NCBI GenBank assembly: GCA_029747585.1
Contig: JAPEVF010000149.1
Coordinates: 25,930-89,929 of the forward strand
Direction: 5' to 3'
Length of the DNA stretch: 64,000 nt
Origin: Pleurotus djamor
Lineage: Eukaryota > Basidiomycota > Agaricomycetes > Agaricales > Pleurotaceae
The notes under the pieces are model-generated. The model was not told the DNA's origin. It was given only the letters and a program-made list of their open reading frames with translations, and made no database searches. Made by a program: the position numbers and the translations under genes. Positions 8,328-53,405 of this stretch are shown piece after piece; the first letter of the stretch is position 1, and every line of letters begins with the position of its first letter.

Positions 8328-8335
8328 CGATGAAC
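8328..8335. repeat. Target-site duplication, left copy (CGATGAAC)
   Basis: Eight bases identical to 9921-9928 directly flank the terminal repeats of the hAT element. An 8-bp duplication is the hallmark of hAT insertion. Confidence 0.93.
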
Positions 8336-8357
8336 TAGTGTTGCCCCAAGTCCAGCG
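8336..8357 (+). repeat. hAT left terminal inverted repeat
   Basis: A 22-bp repeat that begins TAGTGTTGCCCC and is a perfect inverted match to 9899-9920. The TA-G start and Gly/Cys-rich continuation are typical of hAT ends. Confidence 0.93.
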
Positions 8358-8502
8358 CCAGCGATGCTCGAGCCTCCGACCCTGAAACTCGAGTCAGCTC
8401 GAGTTGGTTGCCAAGAACCTCGAGTTGACTCGAGCCAACAAGATTAGCCTTTTTCAGAAATGATAAGATAAACTGGGGTAGGATACAGGGGGAGGGGACC
8501 AA

Positions 8503-8847
8503 CTACGACTCTACGAACGACTCCGCATCCGATGATGTATCTAATGATGAAAGCAAGTTCTCAATGTCTGATGGATTTGTATCAGTGTGATCTTCGGTAT
8601 CTTCCTCCCTTGCAATGAACTTGGAACCATAAGGGAGCCGCTCCGAGCGATACATAAATTTCATGATTTGGAGAATTTCGAAGTTGAGTGGCGACAGACG
8701 AGAGCGACGAAGAGCGTCAGTTTCTTTACCTGACGAGAACACACGTTCACATGGAACGGCGGATGCAGGGATGGGGAGAACATCCAGTGCTAGCCGGAAA
8801 ATGAGAGGATGCCGGGTCTGATTGGCTTTGTCCTGTGAGGAAGGCAT
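8503..8847 (-). pseudogene. hAT transposase C-terminal dimerisation region (remnant)
   Basis: The translation contains IFRLALDVLPIPASAVPCER followed by VFSSGKETDALRRSRLSP, the conserved hAT C-terminal dimerisation motif (hydrophobic stretch, P-x-S-x-x-x-ER-x-FS). It ends at TAG/TGA near 8503 after an acidic Ser/Asp tail. The Asp/Glu catalytic region that should precede it is absent, and the reading frame is shifted relative to the upstream piece, overlapping it by a few bases. Confidence 0.85.
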
Positions 8848-9521
8848 CAGATTTCATCCTCAAGAGGTGCGCAGGCATCTTTTGCCGCCGAAGGGACTGG
8901 ACGAATGGCATTCCAGATATCGGTGGCCACCCAAGAGGATGACTTACGCTCTCGAGAAAATAATTTACTAGCGAAGGCGGGGTGCAGCGCTTCTGCTTGA
9001 GATTCTAAGCTCTCTTGAATAGGGCCATAGCCCGTCGCCGGAGCAAAAGCTGGCTCAGTCTGAGGTGCGGAGAAGGGTGTAGTATTTTCCTTATTACCAC
9101 GCTGGCGTTTGGATCGAGTTCCCCCAGGATGACTCGTCGGGTTCATGCGTTTTGTACCGCGGCTCAAAGTTGCTTGCTGTCTTTGTGGTGTAGAGGAAAG
9201 AGGCATCGTTGTAGAATTCGGAGTTGGAGACGCACTTGGGAGGGGAGGTACCATGCGCGGATTCATCGGAGTGACAAAAGAAAACTGAGGCGGCGGATGA
9301 GATATCGAGGGGTAAGGGAGCTGGCCAAGTGATGGTGATGGTCCTGATGGTGTCATAGGTTGAAATGGATACATAGGCGGCGCATAGAAAGGATAGGGTG
9401 CATGCTGTGTTGTGGCACCTTGGTGCGAAGAAGGCGAAGCAAAGTTGAGCAACTCAGACACTTCGGGGAGGTCTGGAGAAGGGGAACGAAGTGCTTCGTG
9501 ATGATCTGTAGACCCAGACAT
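8847..9521 (-). pseudogene. hAT transposase N-terminal region (remnant)
   Basis: Starting at the ATG of SGSTDHHEAL, this 224-codon frame is Pro/Ser-rich (many PYPF, PPMYP repeats), has a basic nuclear-localisation-like stretch (GTRSKRQRGNKEN) and ends just after SSSWVATDIWNAIRP, which looks like the beginning of a BED-finger or adjacent region. The zinc-binding and catalytic domains do not follow. A GTAAGT lies near 8946, but splicing from it to the CACAG before the downstream piece does not restore the frame, so I read the junction as an internal deletion. Confidence 0.65.
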
Positions 9522-9898
9522 GGTTCTGCACATTTCGAGGAACACGAAATGTGCTATAATAAAGACTTGCGCGACAAAGATTAGATATTGGAAGAATATC
9601 CTCGAATTTTCATCAGAGTGGATTTTTAGGACGCCGGTAGCTAAGGGTCCTTTACTGTACCACTCACTGACTTTCTGACTTCCTCATGCTCAATACGACA
9701 TGTAGATGATATTTTTTTATCTACGAAGGGGTAAGGACAGGAGAGAATTAGGATAAGCAAAGGAGGCGATAGCGACAAATGGGCAGCTGCCAAAAAGGGA
9801 ACGGCAATTCAAGCCGCTACCCAGCTGAGGTCGCTCGAGCCAGCTCAAGGTTTCGACCCTGAGAACCCTGTGAACTCGAGTTGCCTTGACCTCGAGTT

Positions 9899-9920
9899 CG
9901 CTGGACTTGGGGCAACACTA
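9899..9920 (-). repeat. hAT right terminal inverted repeat
   Basis: Perfect reverse complement of 8336-8357. Confidence 0.93.
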
Positions 9921-9928
9921 CGATGAAC
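9921..9928. repeat. Target-site duplication, right copy (CGATGAAC)
   Basis: Identical to the eight bases left of the element. Confidence 0.93.
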
Positions 9929-10217
9929 ACAAGTTGCCGCTAAGGTACTCATTTATTCAGATAATACGAGCCTCGGGCGTTGGGTGGAATGTACCCCACA
10001 AGGCCTGGAACTCCTCGCCAGGGACTGCGCGGTATATATGTTGGCTGTGGTTGTCGTAAGTTAGACAGCTCAGGGCCTCTTGCCCATGTTTGACGGCCTT
10101 TTTCAGTTACAAGTTACAGGAAAGGGCTGCATCCGCAAATGGGTTAAGCCTCCGCAAGACCATTCATAAGGACTAAGGCTGGGGAGTTTGTTGAACCCGT
10201 TCGTCCTTACACTCTAG

Positions 10218-13200
10218 ATGGAAGTTCTTGGGGCACTAACTGCTCCTCCTCTTCTTCAGATTGCTTATAGCTACCTTACTATCGCGTGGCAGCAATATGG
10301 CGTCGTTCAAGGCCACAAGGAGCAGTGTTCATTAATCCTGAATCGATGTCAAGACTTGCTGGTCGAGGTGTGTCGAGTTGCTCAGAGGGATGACTTTACG
10401 CCAGAGATGCAATCGAATATCGTTGTGCTCGAAAGGTAAGTTGTTTCGCTTTTCGATAATCACGCGTAGCCAACACCATGTCCCAGCGCATGCCAAAGCG
10501 TCAAGGACACCATATGCCATGTGGCGGGGAAGGGGTTTGCATGGCGCTTGCTCAACCAGGACAAGGTGGTTCAAGCCATAGCTATCGCAGAAAACTCGAT
10601 CTCAGACGCATTTGCCTGTTTCAATGTGCGTACTCGCATCATCCCACTGTGGCACGATCTTCTCATCCTTGTGTACTCGCGCAGTTTGGCGCACATTTAT
10701 CTGCGCAGAGGCTACAAGTCGACATCGAAGAGGCACGGCAGAAAGACCACCTCTCTCTTGTCAGTCAGCTGGAAGGTCTGGCGGAGAATGACCAGAAGAT
10801 TCTGTCTGCACTACAAGCGGATCAGCGTGGGCGGCATAGGTTGGAAGAATTGGTCATCGCTCTCACTAAAGTGAGTTGCCGGTTTCTACACCTGACTTGA
10901 CTTGGGGGGGATGAAACCATTTGTACAGCATGTACGGAATCTCTCTCCAACAGAGACCAACTCAGATCCCACCAATAAATTCCTTCGTACAGCTAGTGCA
11001 ACTCTACAAAGGCTATCCAACAATCCTTCTCCTGAGATCCCCCACTGGTCTGTCACCAGCTTGGAAGTCAACTTTGATCCCGACGAAGAAGCGACATGCA
11101 TTGGGAGAGGCGGCTTTGGTAATATCTACAAGGGAGAGTGGAACGGTTTAGTTGTTGCAGTCAAGGAAATGTATTCTGAAGACGCTCGCATGCTCGATCG
11201 ATCAAACATGAAGGCCATTCTTCATGAAATCAAGATTTGGTGCGACCAATTCACCTGTGACCCCGTTATGAGCTGAACGTGTACTTTTAGGTCTCGATTA
11301 ACCCATCCACACGTGTTGCCGTTCTATTGCGCCTGCCTTGAGGCCAACAAGGTATATATGTGTACCACCGTCGTTCTTATCTTGCTAACGAAGCTATCTA
11401 GCCTTTCATGGTGAGCCGGTACTGTCCGAATGGAAATGCGCTGGAGTTCCTTCGTAAATATCCTGAGTACCAAAGGATCCCGATGGTAGGCAGCCGTGAA
11501 CTTTGTACGAAGTTAATAAACGCTCATCCCCATACAGCTACATGAGATCTCGCTCGGGATGGTGTATCTACACAGCCAGTCAGTAATTCATAGTGATCTG
11601 AAAGCGGTAAGTATCAACAGCCTCTTCTCTGCTACTTGATTGGTCCTCACGTCTCCTCAGTCCAACATACTCATCGGCGACGACGGCAAAGCTCTCATCG
11701 CAGACTTCGGTTTATCGTTTCTTCAGGAACAGGCATCCACAGGTGCCACCCGCACCATGGCTTCTTCATCTCAACGCCTCAACGGCACCCTTCGCTGGAT
11801 GGCCCCGGAACTCATCGACGGCGAGAAGTTGGACAAGCCCGCTGATGTGTATTCCTACGCCTTGCTCTTGTGGGAGCTTTACACTGGGCAAGTTCCATAT
11901 GGTGATATTCCCGATCGTGCATTTGCAAGGCGGGTTGTTGACAAGCAAGAACGTCCTTCAAGGCCAAGTAATTTCGATAACGATACCCTTTGGCTCCTGA
12001 CGCAAAGTTGCTGGAGTCCGGAGCCTTCCTCTCGACCTGTGTTTCCTGTCATCCAGGCCAAATTAAGACAGTTAAAGAGTGCAATTCGAGGTGCGTGCGT
12101 ATGCGAGCAATTTCTTCGTCCCATATTCATGATTGGTGTTCAGGCAACGATGGTCCTTCTCTGCCTACGTCTCCCGTTTCAGCGTATTCCGCAAGTTCCA
12201 GTATTTCTCAGATGACTGCGGTTAATTCGCCATCTTCACTCGATTCCCCCTTGTCCCCCTTATCAGGAACTACCGTGTCGAACACGAGCTTGGAACCTCC
12301 GAAGGCGAAATCAGAGGGCACGCCGGTTGTGAATGCTTTCGATCACCCCACACAAACCTTAGAGGCCCCAAATTCTGCAACTTCCATCCTGGAAATTCCA
12401 CACCCACCCGATACCCCAATAACTCATTCACCACATCTTTCCGAACCGTCGGAAATCTCTTCTGAACCTCATGCTTCGCAACCGCCCACTCCATCCCCCC
12501 GCAGTCCGGGATACCGTGCTCTTCAGGCAGATGTCGTTACACGCAGTGGTCTACTCCGCGAGCGTTGTAAGTTGTCCATTGACCACCTTTACGTGCAGTT
12601 CTGACAGTTTCCATAGCACCCGCACCAAGTTCGTCACTTCCAGAGCGTCCATACCCTTCGAGTAAAGTTCAGAAGAAGAATATGTCGAATGCCAGTGACT
12701 CGGGCACGTCAGCCCCACTAACCTCTCCCCCTGAAGTGGTGGAAGAGAAAGCGGATCATGATGGGTCTCAACCACGAGCTGATATCCTGAAGACTTTGAA
12801 CGATATCTATAGTACGAAGTCTCGTAAGGAAGCCGCCCCTCTCTCCTGGGATGACCCGTCAAGTGGTTCCGAAGAATCCAAAGAGAGACTTACGCCATCC
12901 CTCCCAGGCGAGATTGACTGACATTTTTTGCACCTTTCGGAATTTTGACACATCCTTTTCAGTGCTACCCGATCTCCAATCTTTCCCCACGCTTGCTCAA
13001 CTTGTTGCTTCGGAGCGTGCTTCTTTGGTCCCTGCGTTCAAATTTGACAGATCCGATTCTCCTCCTCCGCCTGTGCCTTCTCTTCCTCCCCAACGTCCTC
13101 CGTTGTGGGAACGGACCAAGCCTCCGCCATTACCTCCAAGTCGGAAAAAGTCTCCGTCACCTCGACCACTGCTTGAGAATGAGAAGCTCGCAAGTCGGCG

Positions 13201-14996
13201 TGTCAGTGATCCAATCACCGTACCCTCGACATCCTCCTCCAAACGACTCTCCGCAGGTTTGCCCCAGCAATATACTTTATCTTCGACGATCTGACAACGG
13301 TATTGTCCTTTAGAAGGTGTAGTTGCACCACCGTCCGAGGAATCTCTCCGTCGTCGTGGCAGACCTAGTCCGATCTCTCCTCCATCTCCCACTGCCCCTC
13401 TAAGTATTGCGAAGAGGAGCCCGATGTCTCTCATGCACAAAAGATTTGGCTCCTTAGTGAAAGGTAAAATTATCATTAGTCGTCTTTACAGCGGTCTGAC
13501 AATTTACTCACTGCTCTAGATGCGCTTCCCAAGGCTTCACATTACGATGAGAAGCCAGACCCGTTGGAATATGCTGGTCATGTGCTGTCGCTTGTTCCCG
13601 ACCTTACTGAAAAAGGGTCTATCACACAACGCATTCGACGGCTACAGTACTACCTTATGCCCCCTCCACCTCCAGGGGGCACAATATGCTTCACGTCCAT
13701 CGCTATGAGCCAGTACCGTGCCCTAGTGGGAACGTCCAACGGATCGATTCTTTTCTTTGATATGAATACTGGTCGGCTGAAGGGCAACCTCGTGTCTGAA
13801 GGCCCATGCAAAGACATCTTACTCCAAATTTTACCAAATCGTGAGTATCAGGCATCGGCCATGCGAAAGCTAGATAATGCGACGCTGCGAACTATCGGCG
13901 ACAGTAACCCCAAGGAAGTTGGTATCTCCTCGGGATCGGATGGAAGTCTGCGGTTATGGAACCTTGAATCTGGGTATGCAATTTACAACACTTCATTTTG
14001 GAGTGAGATGATGACGATCAGACTCGCCATACAGGAAAATGATCCATGAAGTTTGCGGCCATTCAGCCCCGGTCCTTTGTATGGTGAAGCACTTGCACTA
14101 CATCATCACAGGTTCGGAAGATGAGAAGATTTTAGTCTGGGATATCTGCTGGCCCTTCCGACCAAGTGGGCCCTCGCATGTTTTAGATCGACATACTCGA
14201 GCAGTGACATGCTTATCCCGAGTGCAAGCCGGCCGCTTCGCCAGCGGAAGCTTGGACTCAACCGTTCGCGTACGTTGTCGTCCCCATAACTGGTTGGTTT
14301 TCTCTAACTCAAGTTGCATTCAGCTGTGGCGGATAGATACCAATCAACATCAAAGCTTGGTCTGGACTTACCGTGGCCACGAGGCTGGTGTCTCGCATGT
14401 CGTGTATTATGGGACAAGGATCGCCTCTGTCGGTTTGGATAGTACAATTCGCATCTGGGGCTCCGAGACTCAGTACGTCTACAGAAAGACTCAACCTTGA
14501 TGAACAGATCTTGATCATCCCTCTTAGTGAATCAATCGCGATCCTTCCTCTCTCTTCTCCCGTAACTTGTTTGTCTAACACGCGTGGCCTTCTGTCCTTT
14601 GGGTGTGAAGATGGGGGCATCAACAGCTGCTCCATGTATGGAAGTAACTTTGGCTCTGGCGCCAACGCTTGTGAATCCCCCGTCCGTTCCATAGAAGCGG
14701 CAGGTGATCGTCTCATCGTAGCAGGGGACTCTGGACCCGTGGTTGCTTATACTAACAACGGAAAGTTCGAGGCCAACGTCGGAGACATTGATGAAAGCTC
14801 CATCACGATCCCATCGACACCAACGACTTCCGCCTATGCCCAAGGCTCGTCGTCGACGAAATGGAGATTTGCCCATGATACAGGGAGGTGGGTATTCCTG
14901 CGTCAACATGGATCACGATATATCCTTGATGTTTGGGCCGAGATTGATGGCGAAGGGGCTACTCAGGAATTTGGAAGATCGTCCGCCACTCCTTAA
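10218..14996 (+). CDS. MLKL-like TKL protein kinase fused to a WD40 domain
   Basis: Sixteen exons joined by 15 introns of about 50-63 nt keep one frame to the TAA at 14996, giving 1320 residues. Residues 1 to about 181 are helical, with KEQCSLILNRCQDLLVEV in the first helices, resembling the N-terminal bundle of MLKL/HeLo-type proteins. The kinase (about 235-499) has GRGGFGNIY, VAVKEM, an HSDLKASN catalytic loop, DFG and MAPEL, so the catalytic residues look intact. A long Ser/Pro-rich linker follows, then WD40 repeats (about 935-1320) with SGSDGSLRLWNL, TGSEDEKILVWD, SGSLDSTVRLW and VGLDSTIRIW. One linker intron (12908-12962) is GC-AG; without it the frame stops at 12921, so the fusion depends on it. 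Its paralogue at 49742 shares the first two domains. Likely cytoplasmic signalling; the substrate is unknown. A split into two genes is the alternative. Confidence 0.82.
12908..12962 (+). other. Putative GC-AG intron in the kinase-WD40 gene
   Basis: The donor is CAG|GCGAGA and the acceptor CCTTTTCAG; the length of 55 nt equals that of the neighbouring introns, and a CTGAC branch-like site lies within. Splicing joins codons as CCA G|TG CTA and carries the frame into the following Pro-rich exon. No GT donor nearby gives both a normal length and the right phase. Confidence 0.65.
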
Positions 14997-49741: not shown

Positions 49742-52700
49742 ATGACCATGGAAGTCCTCGCAGCGTTTGCCATCCCAGAGATACTCAAGCTCGGCGGTCA
49801 TGCGCTTCTCTTTGCTTGGGAACAATACGCGAATGTTCAAGGAAACCAGTCGGAATGCCATTTGCTCATCCAGAGATGTCAAGATTTATTCATGGAAGTT
49901 GCCAATCATTACAGTCGCTTGGCAGAGCAGGAGCAGTCAAGTTACATAGAGAGGATGGGGAATCAACTTCGATGTCTGGAGGGGTGCGTATGTTGTTCAG
50001 GGAGTAAGTCCTAGCTGCATTGATTCACAAACGTACCCTAGGGCTTGCTTAGCTGTCCAAGCCACCATCGGACGCCTAGCAAGAAAAGGCTTTGCCTGGA
50101 GACTCCTCAATCAGGATAAAATCAAAGAAGAACTCACCGTAGCAGAGTACGCAGTCTCAGATGCCGTTAGGGCCTTCAATGTGAGTTGTACCTTCAATCA
50201 ACCGCCGATATGGTAGTTTCTGAGGCTGTAACTGCAGATCGGTGCGCATATAGGCGGTCAAGTCCTTCAGATGGAAATTGCTGCAGCACAGAAGAAGGAT
50301 CAGGATGACCTCCTAGCAAGGCTCGACAATGTTGCCGTTAGTGATAGGAAGATTTTGGACGCGTTGCAGGAGGACTCGCTCGGTATTAAGCGGATTGAGG
50401 AGCTGGTGATTGCTTTGGAGAAGGTAAGCCAACCTCGAGCTTGATATATGACAATTGAACGGTCTGCCTACTGAGATGCTTTTGATGTGGTTTGGATAGC
50501 ACGTCATTGAGATGGCCCAATCTTCAAGTCGACAATTGAACGACCCGACCGAGAAGTTCATCCGTACCGCATCGTCAGCGCTCCAGAGAATGTCAGGAAT
50601 CAAGCCCGATATCCCTCACTGGACTGTCACCAGCTTGGAAGTTACCTTCGACCCAAGAGACTCAGAGTCGTGCATAGGTAAGGGCGGATTTGGTAACATC
50701 TTCAAAGGGGATTGGCACGGACAGGTGAGGATTAGTCACTATTCTTCTGGGTGACATTCTTTCATTGATCGGAAACTGGCGCATAGGTTGTTGCTGTGAA
50801 GGAGATGTACAACGAGGACGCTCGACTCTTGGATCGCGACAGTCTGAAGGTTTTCTCCAGTCTATCTCTGAAAAATGATTCAGATCTCATATCATCCTAG
50901 GTCATTCACCAAGAAATAATGATATGGTCACTTCCTTCGCCCCGTTTACCAAAGTCAGATGTCTCATTGAAATCTTAGGTCTCGGATTGCTCACCCGCAC
51001 GTCCTCCCGTTTTACGGCGCTTGCTTGGAGGCCGCTCGCGTACGTTTATACGCTCACAAACTTCCAAATCTCATCTTAAGTCCAGCCTTTCATGGTAACT
51101 CGCTATTGCGAAAATGGCAATGCGCTCGAGTATCTGAGGCGCAATCCCGACACAAGCCGAATACGTATGGTGAGGAGCTATGCCTCAACTATCTCCTTTC
51201 CGTTCTAAAAACATCGTGCTGTGAATCAGCTTCATGAAGTATCTCTCGGTATGACGTACCTGCATAACCAGAGCATCATCCATGCGGACTTGAAAGGGGT
51301 GAGCTTCCCTCCCTTCCCGGTTCGCCTACCCTACCTAATTGCAGACTTAGTCTAATATCCTTGTCGGAGACGACGGAAAGACTCTGATCACGGATTTTGG
51401 ACTTTCTCAGCTTCAAGATCAGGTATCTTCTCTAGCCTCTCGTTCGAAAGTGTCAGGTACATTGCGCTGGATGGCACCAGAGCTCCTCGACGGTGAACGG
51501 TTGAGTCGCCCTGCCGATGTATATAGTTTTGCTTTGTTGGGTTGGGAGCTTTACACTGGCGTCGTACCCTTTGGACATATCCCTGAACGTGCCTTCGTTC
51601 GGAAGGTAGTCGATAAGCAAGAGCGACCCGAGCGTCCAGATAATGTCGACGATGAAATTTGGGAGCTTCTACAGAAATGCTGGGTTCATGAGCCAAGCGA
51701 GAGACCGCCTTTCGCGTTTGTGCAAACCCAGCTGAGATCCATGCTTATCCGAGGTAAGTTTGTCGAATCTCTGGGATGGCCGTACGTGTTTTGATCGATT
51801 TGATAGGCTTGTCTTCCCCGTTAAGTCCGAGATCAAACCCACTCTCTGCTCTCTCACCTACGAGCTCTGCTCCCGTGTCATTGGCCCAGCTCTCTGTCAA
51901 CTCGTTATCAGAACCATCCCCTCCTCCTTACCAACCCACGGTTCCCGACTCGCAAACGTCGATTCCCAACGCAACGCTCGCACCAGCGCCGGCGTATACC
52001 AGCCGAGCTGATCAACCCATCCAAGACAGTGATGTGGATAATTCACCTGGACGCACGCGTATTCAGCAACGCGTCGCTGAGCTTCTATCACACAGCTCCC
52101 TTCCGCCTCAGACGAACGCAGCATCCCGTGCAGGAAAGCAATCTGCATCGAGCACTAAGAAGCAAGAGGATCGCCCTTCTCTCTCTCCTGCGGGATCGAC
52201 GGAACTTCGTGGGAGGGCTATTTGGGATTATGTGGTATGTGATTAGAGTTCATGTCTCTGCGTTGGGATATGTGCTAAGCCCCGTCGCATCGATATCCAG
52301 GCCCAGCAATCCAACGAGTTGAGTTTCAAAGAGGATGATATAATAGTGAAGATACAGAAGCCCGACGAAGACTGGTGGTTTGGCCAAGGACCGGATGGTA
52401 AGAGGGGTCTGTTTCCCGGTAGGTGTGATGTAGCTAGGAGCCACGATGAAGACACTCATGATTAGGAAGCCAACCACATCGAAGTATTGGATCCAATACC
52501 CTCTAAAGCAAGCAAGAATGCGGAGAAAGTAAATCGACAGGCACACATACAAGGGGAGGCTTCCAAGCGCATCCAACAAAGGGTTGCTGCACTTCTAGGA
52601 AACGACACGACTACGTCCCAGAAGAACGCAGTGCGTAATGAGAAGAAACGAGCGTCGCGTCAGAAAAAGCAAGCCAATCCTCGTTCTGCCTCTCCTGACG

Positions 52701-53405
52701 CATCAGAGTCAACAGGGCTATGTGGAAGGGCTATCTGGGGATACACGGTGTGTTGCCCCTCTAGCTCTGACCTGCATGAGCTGATGTCCTCACGTCGCGC
52801 CACCCCAGGCCCAATATCCCAATGAATTAACTTTCAAAGAAGACGATGTAATAGTACATATACAAAAACCTGACGAAGATTGGTGGTTTGGTCAGGGACC
52901 TGACGGTGAACAGGGTGTTTTCCCTGGTAGGTTGTTATCTTGACGAACCTTTTTTCAGACATGCTCATTGTTGTGCAGCCAAATATGTTGAACTATTGAA
53001 CTCGGTTGTAATACGGGTAAGTACTTTCTCGCACATCCAGCAACGCTGTCTCATCGGCGCGTACATTGTAGCCTCCAACTCCCACACAAGTCCGTCCGCC
53101 TCTGCCGGTCCGCATCAGGCCGCCAGTAGCTATCGCTGAGTACGAGTGCGTGTCGTCCTTCGTCCGTCGGTATCTGCTCTCAGTAGAGTCTTCAGTTACA
53201 CCCGCCAGGAAGAGAATGAGATTTCTTTTAAGGAAGGCCAGGGAATCCACTCCATTGATCGGGTCCATCCAGATTGGTGGGCTGGAACGAATGCTCAAGG
53301 CGAGCGTGGACTTTTTCCTTGTGCGTTTCCCGCCTTTCTTTGGAGAACTTGACCCTCATCGGTCTGCCCACTTTAGCTAATTATGTCACTCTCGTCGAAG
53401 AGTGA
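49742..53405 (+). CDS. MLKL-like TKL protein kinase with three C-terminal SH3 domains
   Basis: Eighteen exons joined by standard short GT-AG introns keep one frame to TGA at 53403-53405 and give 901 residues. Residues 1 to about 189 are the same helical region as in the kinase-WD40 protein (NQSECHLLIQRCQDLFMEV; KGFAWRLLNQDK is shared exactly). The kinase (about 240-499) has GKGGFGNIFKG, VVAVKEMYNEDARLLDR, HADLKGSNILVGDD, ITDFGLSQ and RWMAPELLDGE, all catalytic residues present. A Ser/Pro linker leads to SH3-1 (NELSFKEDDIIVKIQKPDED then WWFGQGPDG), SH3-2 (NELTFKEDDVIVHIQKPDED) and SH3-3 (AEYDYTRQEENEISFKEG, ending SNYVTLVEE). Five internal exons have the same size as in the paralogue (139, 186, 61, 84 and 69 nt). 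SH3 domains would bind Pro-rich partners. The first of two nearby ATGs is used. Confidence 0.88.

Follow-up and report, generated by a model that had tools for sequence, protein, structure and literature searches.

A Pleurotus djamor gene predicted to join an MLKL-like helical bundle, a protein kinase and a WD40 domain belongs to a fungal family with differing tails

The window analysed here, 64,000 nucleotides of the basidiomycete Pleurotus djamor (GenBank assembly GCA_029747585.1, contig JAPEVF010000149.1, positions 25,930 to 89,929 of the forward strand), carries a gene (hereafter the query) at positions 10218 to 14996 whose favoured model encodes one protein of 1320 residues, in which a predicted N-terminal bundle resembling that of MLKL is followed by a catalytically equipped kinase, a long linker and a WD40 domain. 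Sequence comparison shows that this fusion is no one-off but belongs to a fungal family whose members carry differing tails, possibly as single-chain switches for cell death or stress. We lean, tentatively and at somewhat less than an even chance, towards reading the protein as a sensor, a kinase switch and an MLKL/HeLo-type executor in a single chain, a reading closely rivalled by that of a plain signalling kinase.

Gene structure

The query gene has 16 exons and 15 introns, from its start codon at 10218 to the end of its stop codon at 14996 on the forward strand, the reading phase being preserved across all 15 junctions and the terminal stop being the only one in the spliced frame. The initial annotation, made from the DNA alone, had proposed fifteen introns in exact phase and 1320 residues, a model that we reproduced, and its count of 14 GT–AG introns also held, although these measure 50–61 nt rather than 50–63 nt. 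Exons 1–3 (10218–10870, interrupted by introns at 10436–10486 and 10626–10684) encode residues 1–181, comprising a hydrophobic N-terminal helix, a predicted four-helix bundle with a short cross helix, and most of a predicted brace. Exons 4–8 (10929–12090) encode the end of the brace and then the protein kinase (residues ∼238–491), exons 9–12 (12144–13463) a Ser/Pro-rich linker, and exons 13–16 (13520–14996, with the stop codon at 14994–14996) the WD40 propeller, recognized over residues ∼1016–1183, and a C-terminal tail.

This model of the fusion depends on the removal of intron 10 (12908–12962), a 55-nt GC–AG intron that contains a stop codon at 12919–12921; left unspliced, the frame terminates at 12921. 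The weak point of the fusion had been rightly guessed to lie near 12921, and the closest deposited protein, P. djamor ONZ45_g19480 (P0001; 738 aa, from a 3506-base contig, 99% identical to the query across 737 residues), terminates exactly at this stop inside intron 10. The GC donor scores 1.9, compared with 5.0–11.2 for the 14 GT donors of the same gene, and is exceeded by an alternative GT donor at 12812 (6.2); with the modelled acceptor this donor gives a 151-nt intron, much longer than the gene's other introns, and with either of two nearer AGs an intron of 52 or 76 nt. A scan of donor–acceptor pairs around intron 10 found 63 candidates that keep the frame open, the modelled pair counted among them, and an open path through therefore exists. 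With codon scores trained on paralogues, and applied exon by exon in six frames, the modelled frame outscored the other two forward frames in 15 of the 16 exons, and all five other frames in 12. A different forward frame scored slightly higher in exon 11, which lies in the linker, and a reverse frame scored higher in exons 6, 12 and 15; the scores were unable to single out exon 11 as coding in the modelled frame.

Two adjacent genes, the first encoding a kinase that terminates at 12921 and the second a WD40 protein that begins at Met 873 or elsewhere, would explain why the deposited P. djamor protein stops with GEID at 12921, and would fit both the weak GC donor and the codon scores of exon 11. 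However, the earliest start for a separate WD40 gene in the modelled frame is Met 873, in exon 12, so that such a gene would leave out exon 11, whose 294 nt are open and in phase. Moreover, kinase and WD40 are annotated as single chains in three other species, namely Hohenbuehelia grisea (P0002 and P0121), P. eryngii (P0124) and P. pulmonarius (P0130, which lacks the start of the bundle). The H. grisea ortholog P0002 (1225 aa) can be aligned with the query on either side of the linker, at 71% over residues 1–508 and 30% over residues 897–1303, and the two form one group with 100/99 support in a tree built from bundle and kinase. The same order of bundle, kinase and WD40 recurs at a second P. 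djamor locus, present as two contig copies (C836 and C517) and modelled with P0121 as template. Because of the annotated chains from the three other species, we favour a single kinase–WD40 gene on the sequences at hand and consider two genes improbable.

Kinase, linker and WD40 domain

The intact TKL kinase of the initial annotation is borne out by a match to Pfam PF07714 (E 4.8e-51, residues 238–491) and by the presence of all seven residues checked (K260, E281, D353, N358, D371, G373 and E406), the kinase fold and catalytic motifs being those of a TKL protein kinase. Animal MLKL is a pseudokinase, a trait that the query does not share, its catalytic residues being complete. The linker (residues 501–890) consists of 18.7% Ser and 17.4% Pro, and has low, disorder-like confidence in an AlphaFold model of P0001, as far as residue 738. 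The terminal WD40 domain is a WD40 propeller by its match to PF00400 (E 8.2e-17, 61.3 bits against a cut-off of 27) in three stretches, and further propeller models match over residues ∼1016–1183.

The N-terminal bundle

Profile comparisons and a predicted model together suggest that the N terminus is MLKL-like. The top PDB match of a profile of eight family sequences was mouse MLKL (4btf), at an E value of 0.016 that is not below 0.001, followed by a designed helical protein at 0.18, and positions 23–98 of the profile aligned in register with mouse MLKL 19–95. With hhalign, a 15-row family profile reached 84% against the mouse MLKL stretch, equalled by none of 200 shuffles, and 96% over 202 columns against a chytrid profile. 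The Pfam family MLKL_N (PF22215, curated cut-off 27 bits) was matched at E≤1 by 9 of 30 family proteins, with at least one member over the cut-off among the matches listed, the chytrid protein P0144 (E 3.1e-10, 40.2 bits). When ten N-termini were scanned separately at E≤10, seven matched MLKL_N (E 6.7e-5, 2e-4, 0.001, 0.0022, 0.0024, 0.025 and 4.5), which was the top family in the first four of these.

An AlphaFold model of P0001 made with 27 sequences had a mean pLDDT (predicted local distance difference test) of 71.5 overall and was good for bundle and kinase, with means of 79–96 per ten-residue block from residue 11 to 220; an earlier model made with 6 sequences was poor (mean 48). Helices were predicted at residues 11–27, 34–56, 62–86, 90–95 (short) and 97–118, then at 126–151, 155–163 and 172–185, with a last one at 195–211 before the kinase. 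Four long helices, a short helix and brace-like helices are thus predicted, the initial annotation having suggested a search for a four-helix bundle with brace, and the helix order and brace of the predicted model fit MLKL. A further short helix at residues 2–6 of the model could be the counterpart of the extra N-terminal helix of basidiomycete MLKL-like domains. Residues 1–26 are hydrophobic in all ten members tested, their grand average of hydropathy ranging from 0.45 to 1.47, compared with −0.17 to −0.46 for residues 27–185.

Several results weigh against this likeness. The query N terminus alone gave no Pfam match at E≤1, and so no MLKL_N membership by the curated cut-off, and no PDB match at E≤10; all seven separate MLKL_N matches (7.2–22.9 bits) lie under the cut-off of 27; the N-termini of P0003, P0127 and P0132 had no MLKL_N match at E≤10; and those of P0002, P0139 and P0145 scored better with other, mostly coiled-coil families. 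A three-row chytrid profile reached just 1.3% against the same mouse MLKL stretch, which had itself been picked as the best match, and the shuffle control loses helix periodicity. Fold searches with both AlphaFold models returned kinases throughout the matches listed and were uninformative on the bundle, giving no direct fold match to MLKL. The MLKL-type bundle of the initial annotation is therefore tentatively supported by family profiles, by matches of sibling proteins and by the predicted model with its brace, and not by a profile match of the query alone; the MLKL layout holds as to the order of bundle and kinase and fails as to the kinase, which is catalytically equipped where that of animals is a pseudokinase.

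A family with differing tails

The family set consisted of 30 proteins from a protein search together with P0005, and a local profile search found the N-terminal domain, whole or partial, in 31/31, P0004 showing its last 39 positions only. Tails were assigned from Pfam rows and from the model of the second P. djamor locus. A WD40 tail is carried by the query, P0002, P0121, P0124, P0130 and the second P. djamor locus, and an SH3 tail by P0122, which is encoded in this window, by P0125 and also by the kinase-less P0126 and P0128. ARM tails are found in P0003, P0004, P0123 (P. djamor), P0133, P0135, P0137 and P0142. The bundle–kinase cores of P0127, P0129 and P0005, proteins of Antrodiella, Steccherinum and Pholiota, end in PF09259, which we take to be the fungal immunomodulatory Fve family.

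In the tree built from bundle and kinase, which has 24 rows, the two SH3 rows are not sisters; both lie inside a clade with 100/99 support together with three WD40 rows, and P0125 joins two WD40 rows at 100/99. With tails taken singly, the well-supported branches force two changes for SH3 and three for WD40, and a single origin is possible for ARM and for Fve tails alike; taken jointly, the four tails require four changes compared with a minimum possible of three. The mixing of SH3 and WD40 therefore supports one or more events in which these two tails were exchanged or one replaced the other, with no more than one being forced.

Of 32 family sequences, 25, among them the query, have all seven kinase residues intact, and the other 7 miss one or more. 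In P. ostreatus P0125 the K, D and N are changed, and in P0132, P0138, P0005 and P0146 kinase residues are gapped or changed, possibly through model errors. P. pulmonarius P0126 and P0128 consist of bundle and SH3 without a kinase. The bundle has therefore been kept where catalysis was lost, in the dead kinase of P0125 and in the kinase-less P0126 and P0128.

Two observations concern the annotation of family members. P0126 and P0128 are named as SHO1 family or transmembrane osmosensor, names that look like misnaming via the SH3 domain. The Tulasnella protein P0139, a bundle–kinase protein, has methyltransferase domains upstream in the same model, in which annotation may have merged two genes.

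Selection and divergence

The ratio of nonsynonymous to synonymous substitution rates (dN/dS) of the WD40 domain was measured between the C836 and C517 copies of the second P. djamor WD40 locus. Copy against copy, dN/dS was 0.065 for the bundle, 0.057 for the kinase, 0.519 for the linker and 0.036 for the WD40. At the ARM locus it was 0 for the bundle (8 synonymous changes, 0 other), 0.157 for the kinase, 0.273 for the linker and 0.113 for the tail. The tails are maintained at these paralogous loci. Between the query and a partial copy of it on contig C431, exons 1–5 show 6 synonymous and 0 nonsynonymous differences. Across genera, the WD40 tail of the query is more diverged than its bundle and kinase, with identities to the H. 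grisea ortholog of 33% (133/402), 65% (140/215) and 77.5% (220/284), respectively.

This divergence of the WD40, along with the joining of a bundle-type effector to such a domain, would suit an allorecognition gene of the HET-E kind, acting in heterokaryon incompatibility, with the WD40 reading non-self partners. We nevertheless regard this as very unlikely, given the WD40 dN/dS of 0.036 between paralogue copies. The WD40 exons of the query contain neither a tandem array nor a direct repeat of at least 25 bases, unlike the HET-E type, whose WD40 repeats are described as near-identical in the accessible part of one article (PMC12881547). Furthermore, NACHT and NB-ARC are absent among the six families matched at E≤1 by residues 57–885, the kinase standing in this place, and the protein does not classify as a fungal NLR. 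The idea that a hypervariable WD40 points to allorecognition was considered and rejected, being unsupported by the dN/dS of paralogue copies or by the repeat searches.

Proposed mechanism and the signalling alternative

In the single-chain executor reading, bundle and brace would form a possible membrane-acting output, the kinase a switch and the WD40 a binding or sensing end. At rest, brace and kinase would hold the bundle inactive. Once the WD40 end bound a partner or was clustered, kinases would phosphorylate one another or the brace, whereupon the bundles would form oligomers and insert their hydrophobic first helices into a membrane, leading to lytic death or an ion signal. One chain would then do the job of RIPK3 plus MLKL in animals. 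Autoinhibition, trigger, oligomerisation, membrane action and cell death are all steps that we infer.

Nearly as credible to us is a signalling kinase that is preceded by a helical module for dimerisation or regulation, followed by a tail that binds partners, and not involved in membrane killing; the tails would merely choose partner or place, and the resemblance to MLKL would go back to common ancestry, or to a similar layout of helices, with no function in common. Consistent with it, the seven checked residues are all present in most of the family (25/32), SH3, ARM and WD40 are general partner-binding domains, the bundle, kinase and tail of the paralogues are under purifying selection, and coiled-coil families score equally well or better for some N-termini. 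It accounts less readily for the bundle retained in one kinase-dead and two kinase-less members or for the hydrophobic N-terminal helix in 10/10 tested members; moreover, the characterised bundle-plus-kinase proteins, MLKL and, from the part of the report available, wheat Pm13 (PMC10951266), act in cell death or immunity. The executor reading, for its part, has to contend with a C517 copy of the second WD40 locus that carries a stop within its modelled linker, with gene models of P0126 and P0128 that may be wrong, and with a low paralogue WD40 dN/dS that does not look like that of a hypervariable non-self sensor. Its link to cell death is drawn from architecture, and the roles at the membrane and in death are proposed ones.

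A broader proposal, somewhat less probable to us than either of these readings, is that the family represents a basidiomycete class of NLR-like single-chain receptors, in which an MLKL-type membrane executor is combined with an active kinase, where NLRs have the nucleotide switch, and with an exchangeable WD40, SH3, ARM or Fve tail. Tail exchange, with the front half kept constant, would then be a route to new triggers, and the changes by which P0125 lost catalysis, and P0126 and P0128 the whole kinase, would be steps like those toward animal MLKL. If the bundle kills, the family would provide basidiomycetes, cultivated oyster mushrooms among them, with an executor resembling that of necroptosis, equipped with a kinase and a binding end in the same chain; its active-kinase, dead-kinase and no-kinase members would be intermediates for the origin of an MLKL-type pseudokinase. 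Recognition-triggered cell killing in basidiomycetes appears to be poorly known, reviews being, in their accessible portions, based mainly on ascomycetes.

Neighbouring and related loci

The SH3 paralogue in the window, ONZ45_g6752 (P0122, 901 aa), occupies 49742–53405 on the forward strand, ∼35 kb from the query gene, its start and stop having been located by visual comparison of the DNA with P0122; it comprises an MLKL-like bundle, a kinase and three SH3 domains (counted by eye), and a second copy on C836 is 94–96% identical. The two H. grisea WD40 members are numbered 005255 and 005266, each on a 2881227-base contig, and may thus be an old pair. Ten of the 19 other or overlapping window frames of at least 200 aa were scanned against Pfam; six had ordinary matches (DnaJ/TPR, WD40, Na/Ca exchanger, Nramp, F-box and a weak glycoside hydrolase) and the remaining four had none.

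A DNA element at 8328–9929, which has terminal inverted repeats of 22 bp and a perfect target duplication of 8 bp (CGATGAAC), ends 289 bases before the query ATG and is, by this anatomy, presumably of hAT type. The partial copy on C431 (2913–4367) corresponds to the start of the query (window 10000–11443, 98%) and passes in exon 6 into sequence that does not match the window; it may be a rearranged second haplotype, a partial duplication or an assembly fault. An intact second copy of the query on C431 is ruled out, the match being limited to window 10000–11443. Elsewhere, C1097:8078–8404 matches MLKL_N over the cut-off (40.5 bits) within a 926-residue open frame that has a cysteine/histidine-rich stretch and no evident kinase in the 708 residues read by eye.

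Comparison with known systems

The query resembles animal MLKL in a bundle that profiles place in register with mouse MLKL 19–95, in its brace-like helices and in the kinase fold behind them. It differs in its catalytically equipped kinase and in the added long linker and WD40, and the likeness lies at profile level only. Because the kinase has its catalytic residues and the query N terminus has no Pfam match at E≤1, the protein is not simply MLKL. It may work like MLKL, yet it is not to be filed as MLKL, since it was tested against both the curated cut-off and the pseudokinase feature and has neither.

Wheat Pm13, according to the part of its description available (PMC10951266), combines an MLKL_NTD bundle, a three-helix brace and a Ser/Thr kinase in one 476-aa chain. 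It and the plant MLKLs are thus alike in having bundle, brace and kinase in one chain, whereas Pm13 has no C-terminal repeat domain and its kinase is assigned to a plant group. The basidiomycete MLKL-like (BaMLKL) domains of NLRs, as far as the accessible text of PMC9815663 goes, are marked by hM, a short helix set perpendicular, and by an additional helix at the N terminus, and share with the query model the four-helix core, the short cross helix and a candidate for that extra helix. Unlike the query bundle, which precedes a kinase, they sit on NLR receptors. Bacterial kinase–WD40 proteins (for example, P0024 and P0036) also carry kinase and WD40 in one chain, but they are bacterial, of low identity, and likened to the query by kinase and WD40 alone, not by their N-termini.

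Similar in layout, too, are the fungal HELL-kinase proteins, in which a bundle is fused to a kinase or pseudokinase and which are said to recall MLKL; no C-terminal WD40, ARM, SH3 or Fve tail is described for them in the available portion of that article (PMC12881547). The pairing of bundle and kinase is therefore already in print for animals, plants and, in the same article, fungi. We found no description of a fungal bundle–kinase protein that ends in any of these four tails in the open PubMed Central literature, as far as its accessible text extends. What is new here is a front half shared by a family with differing tails (WD40, SH3, ARM and Fve), in which SH3 and WD40 members are mixed within one clade.

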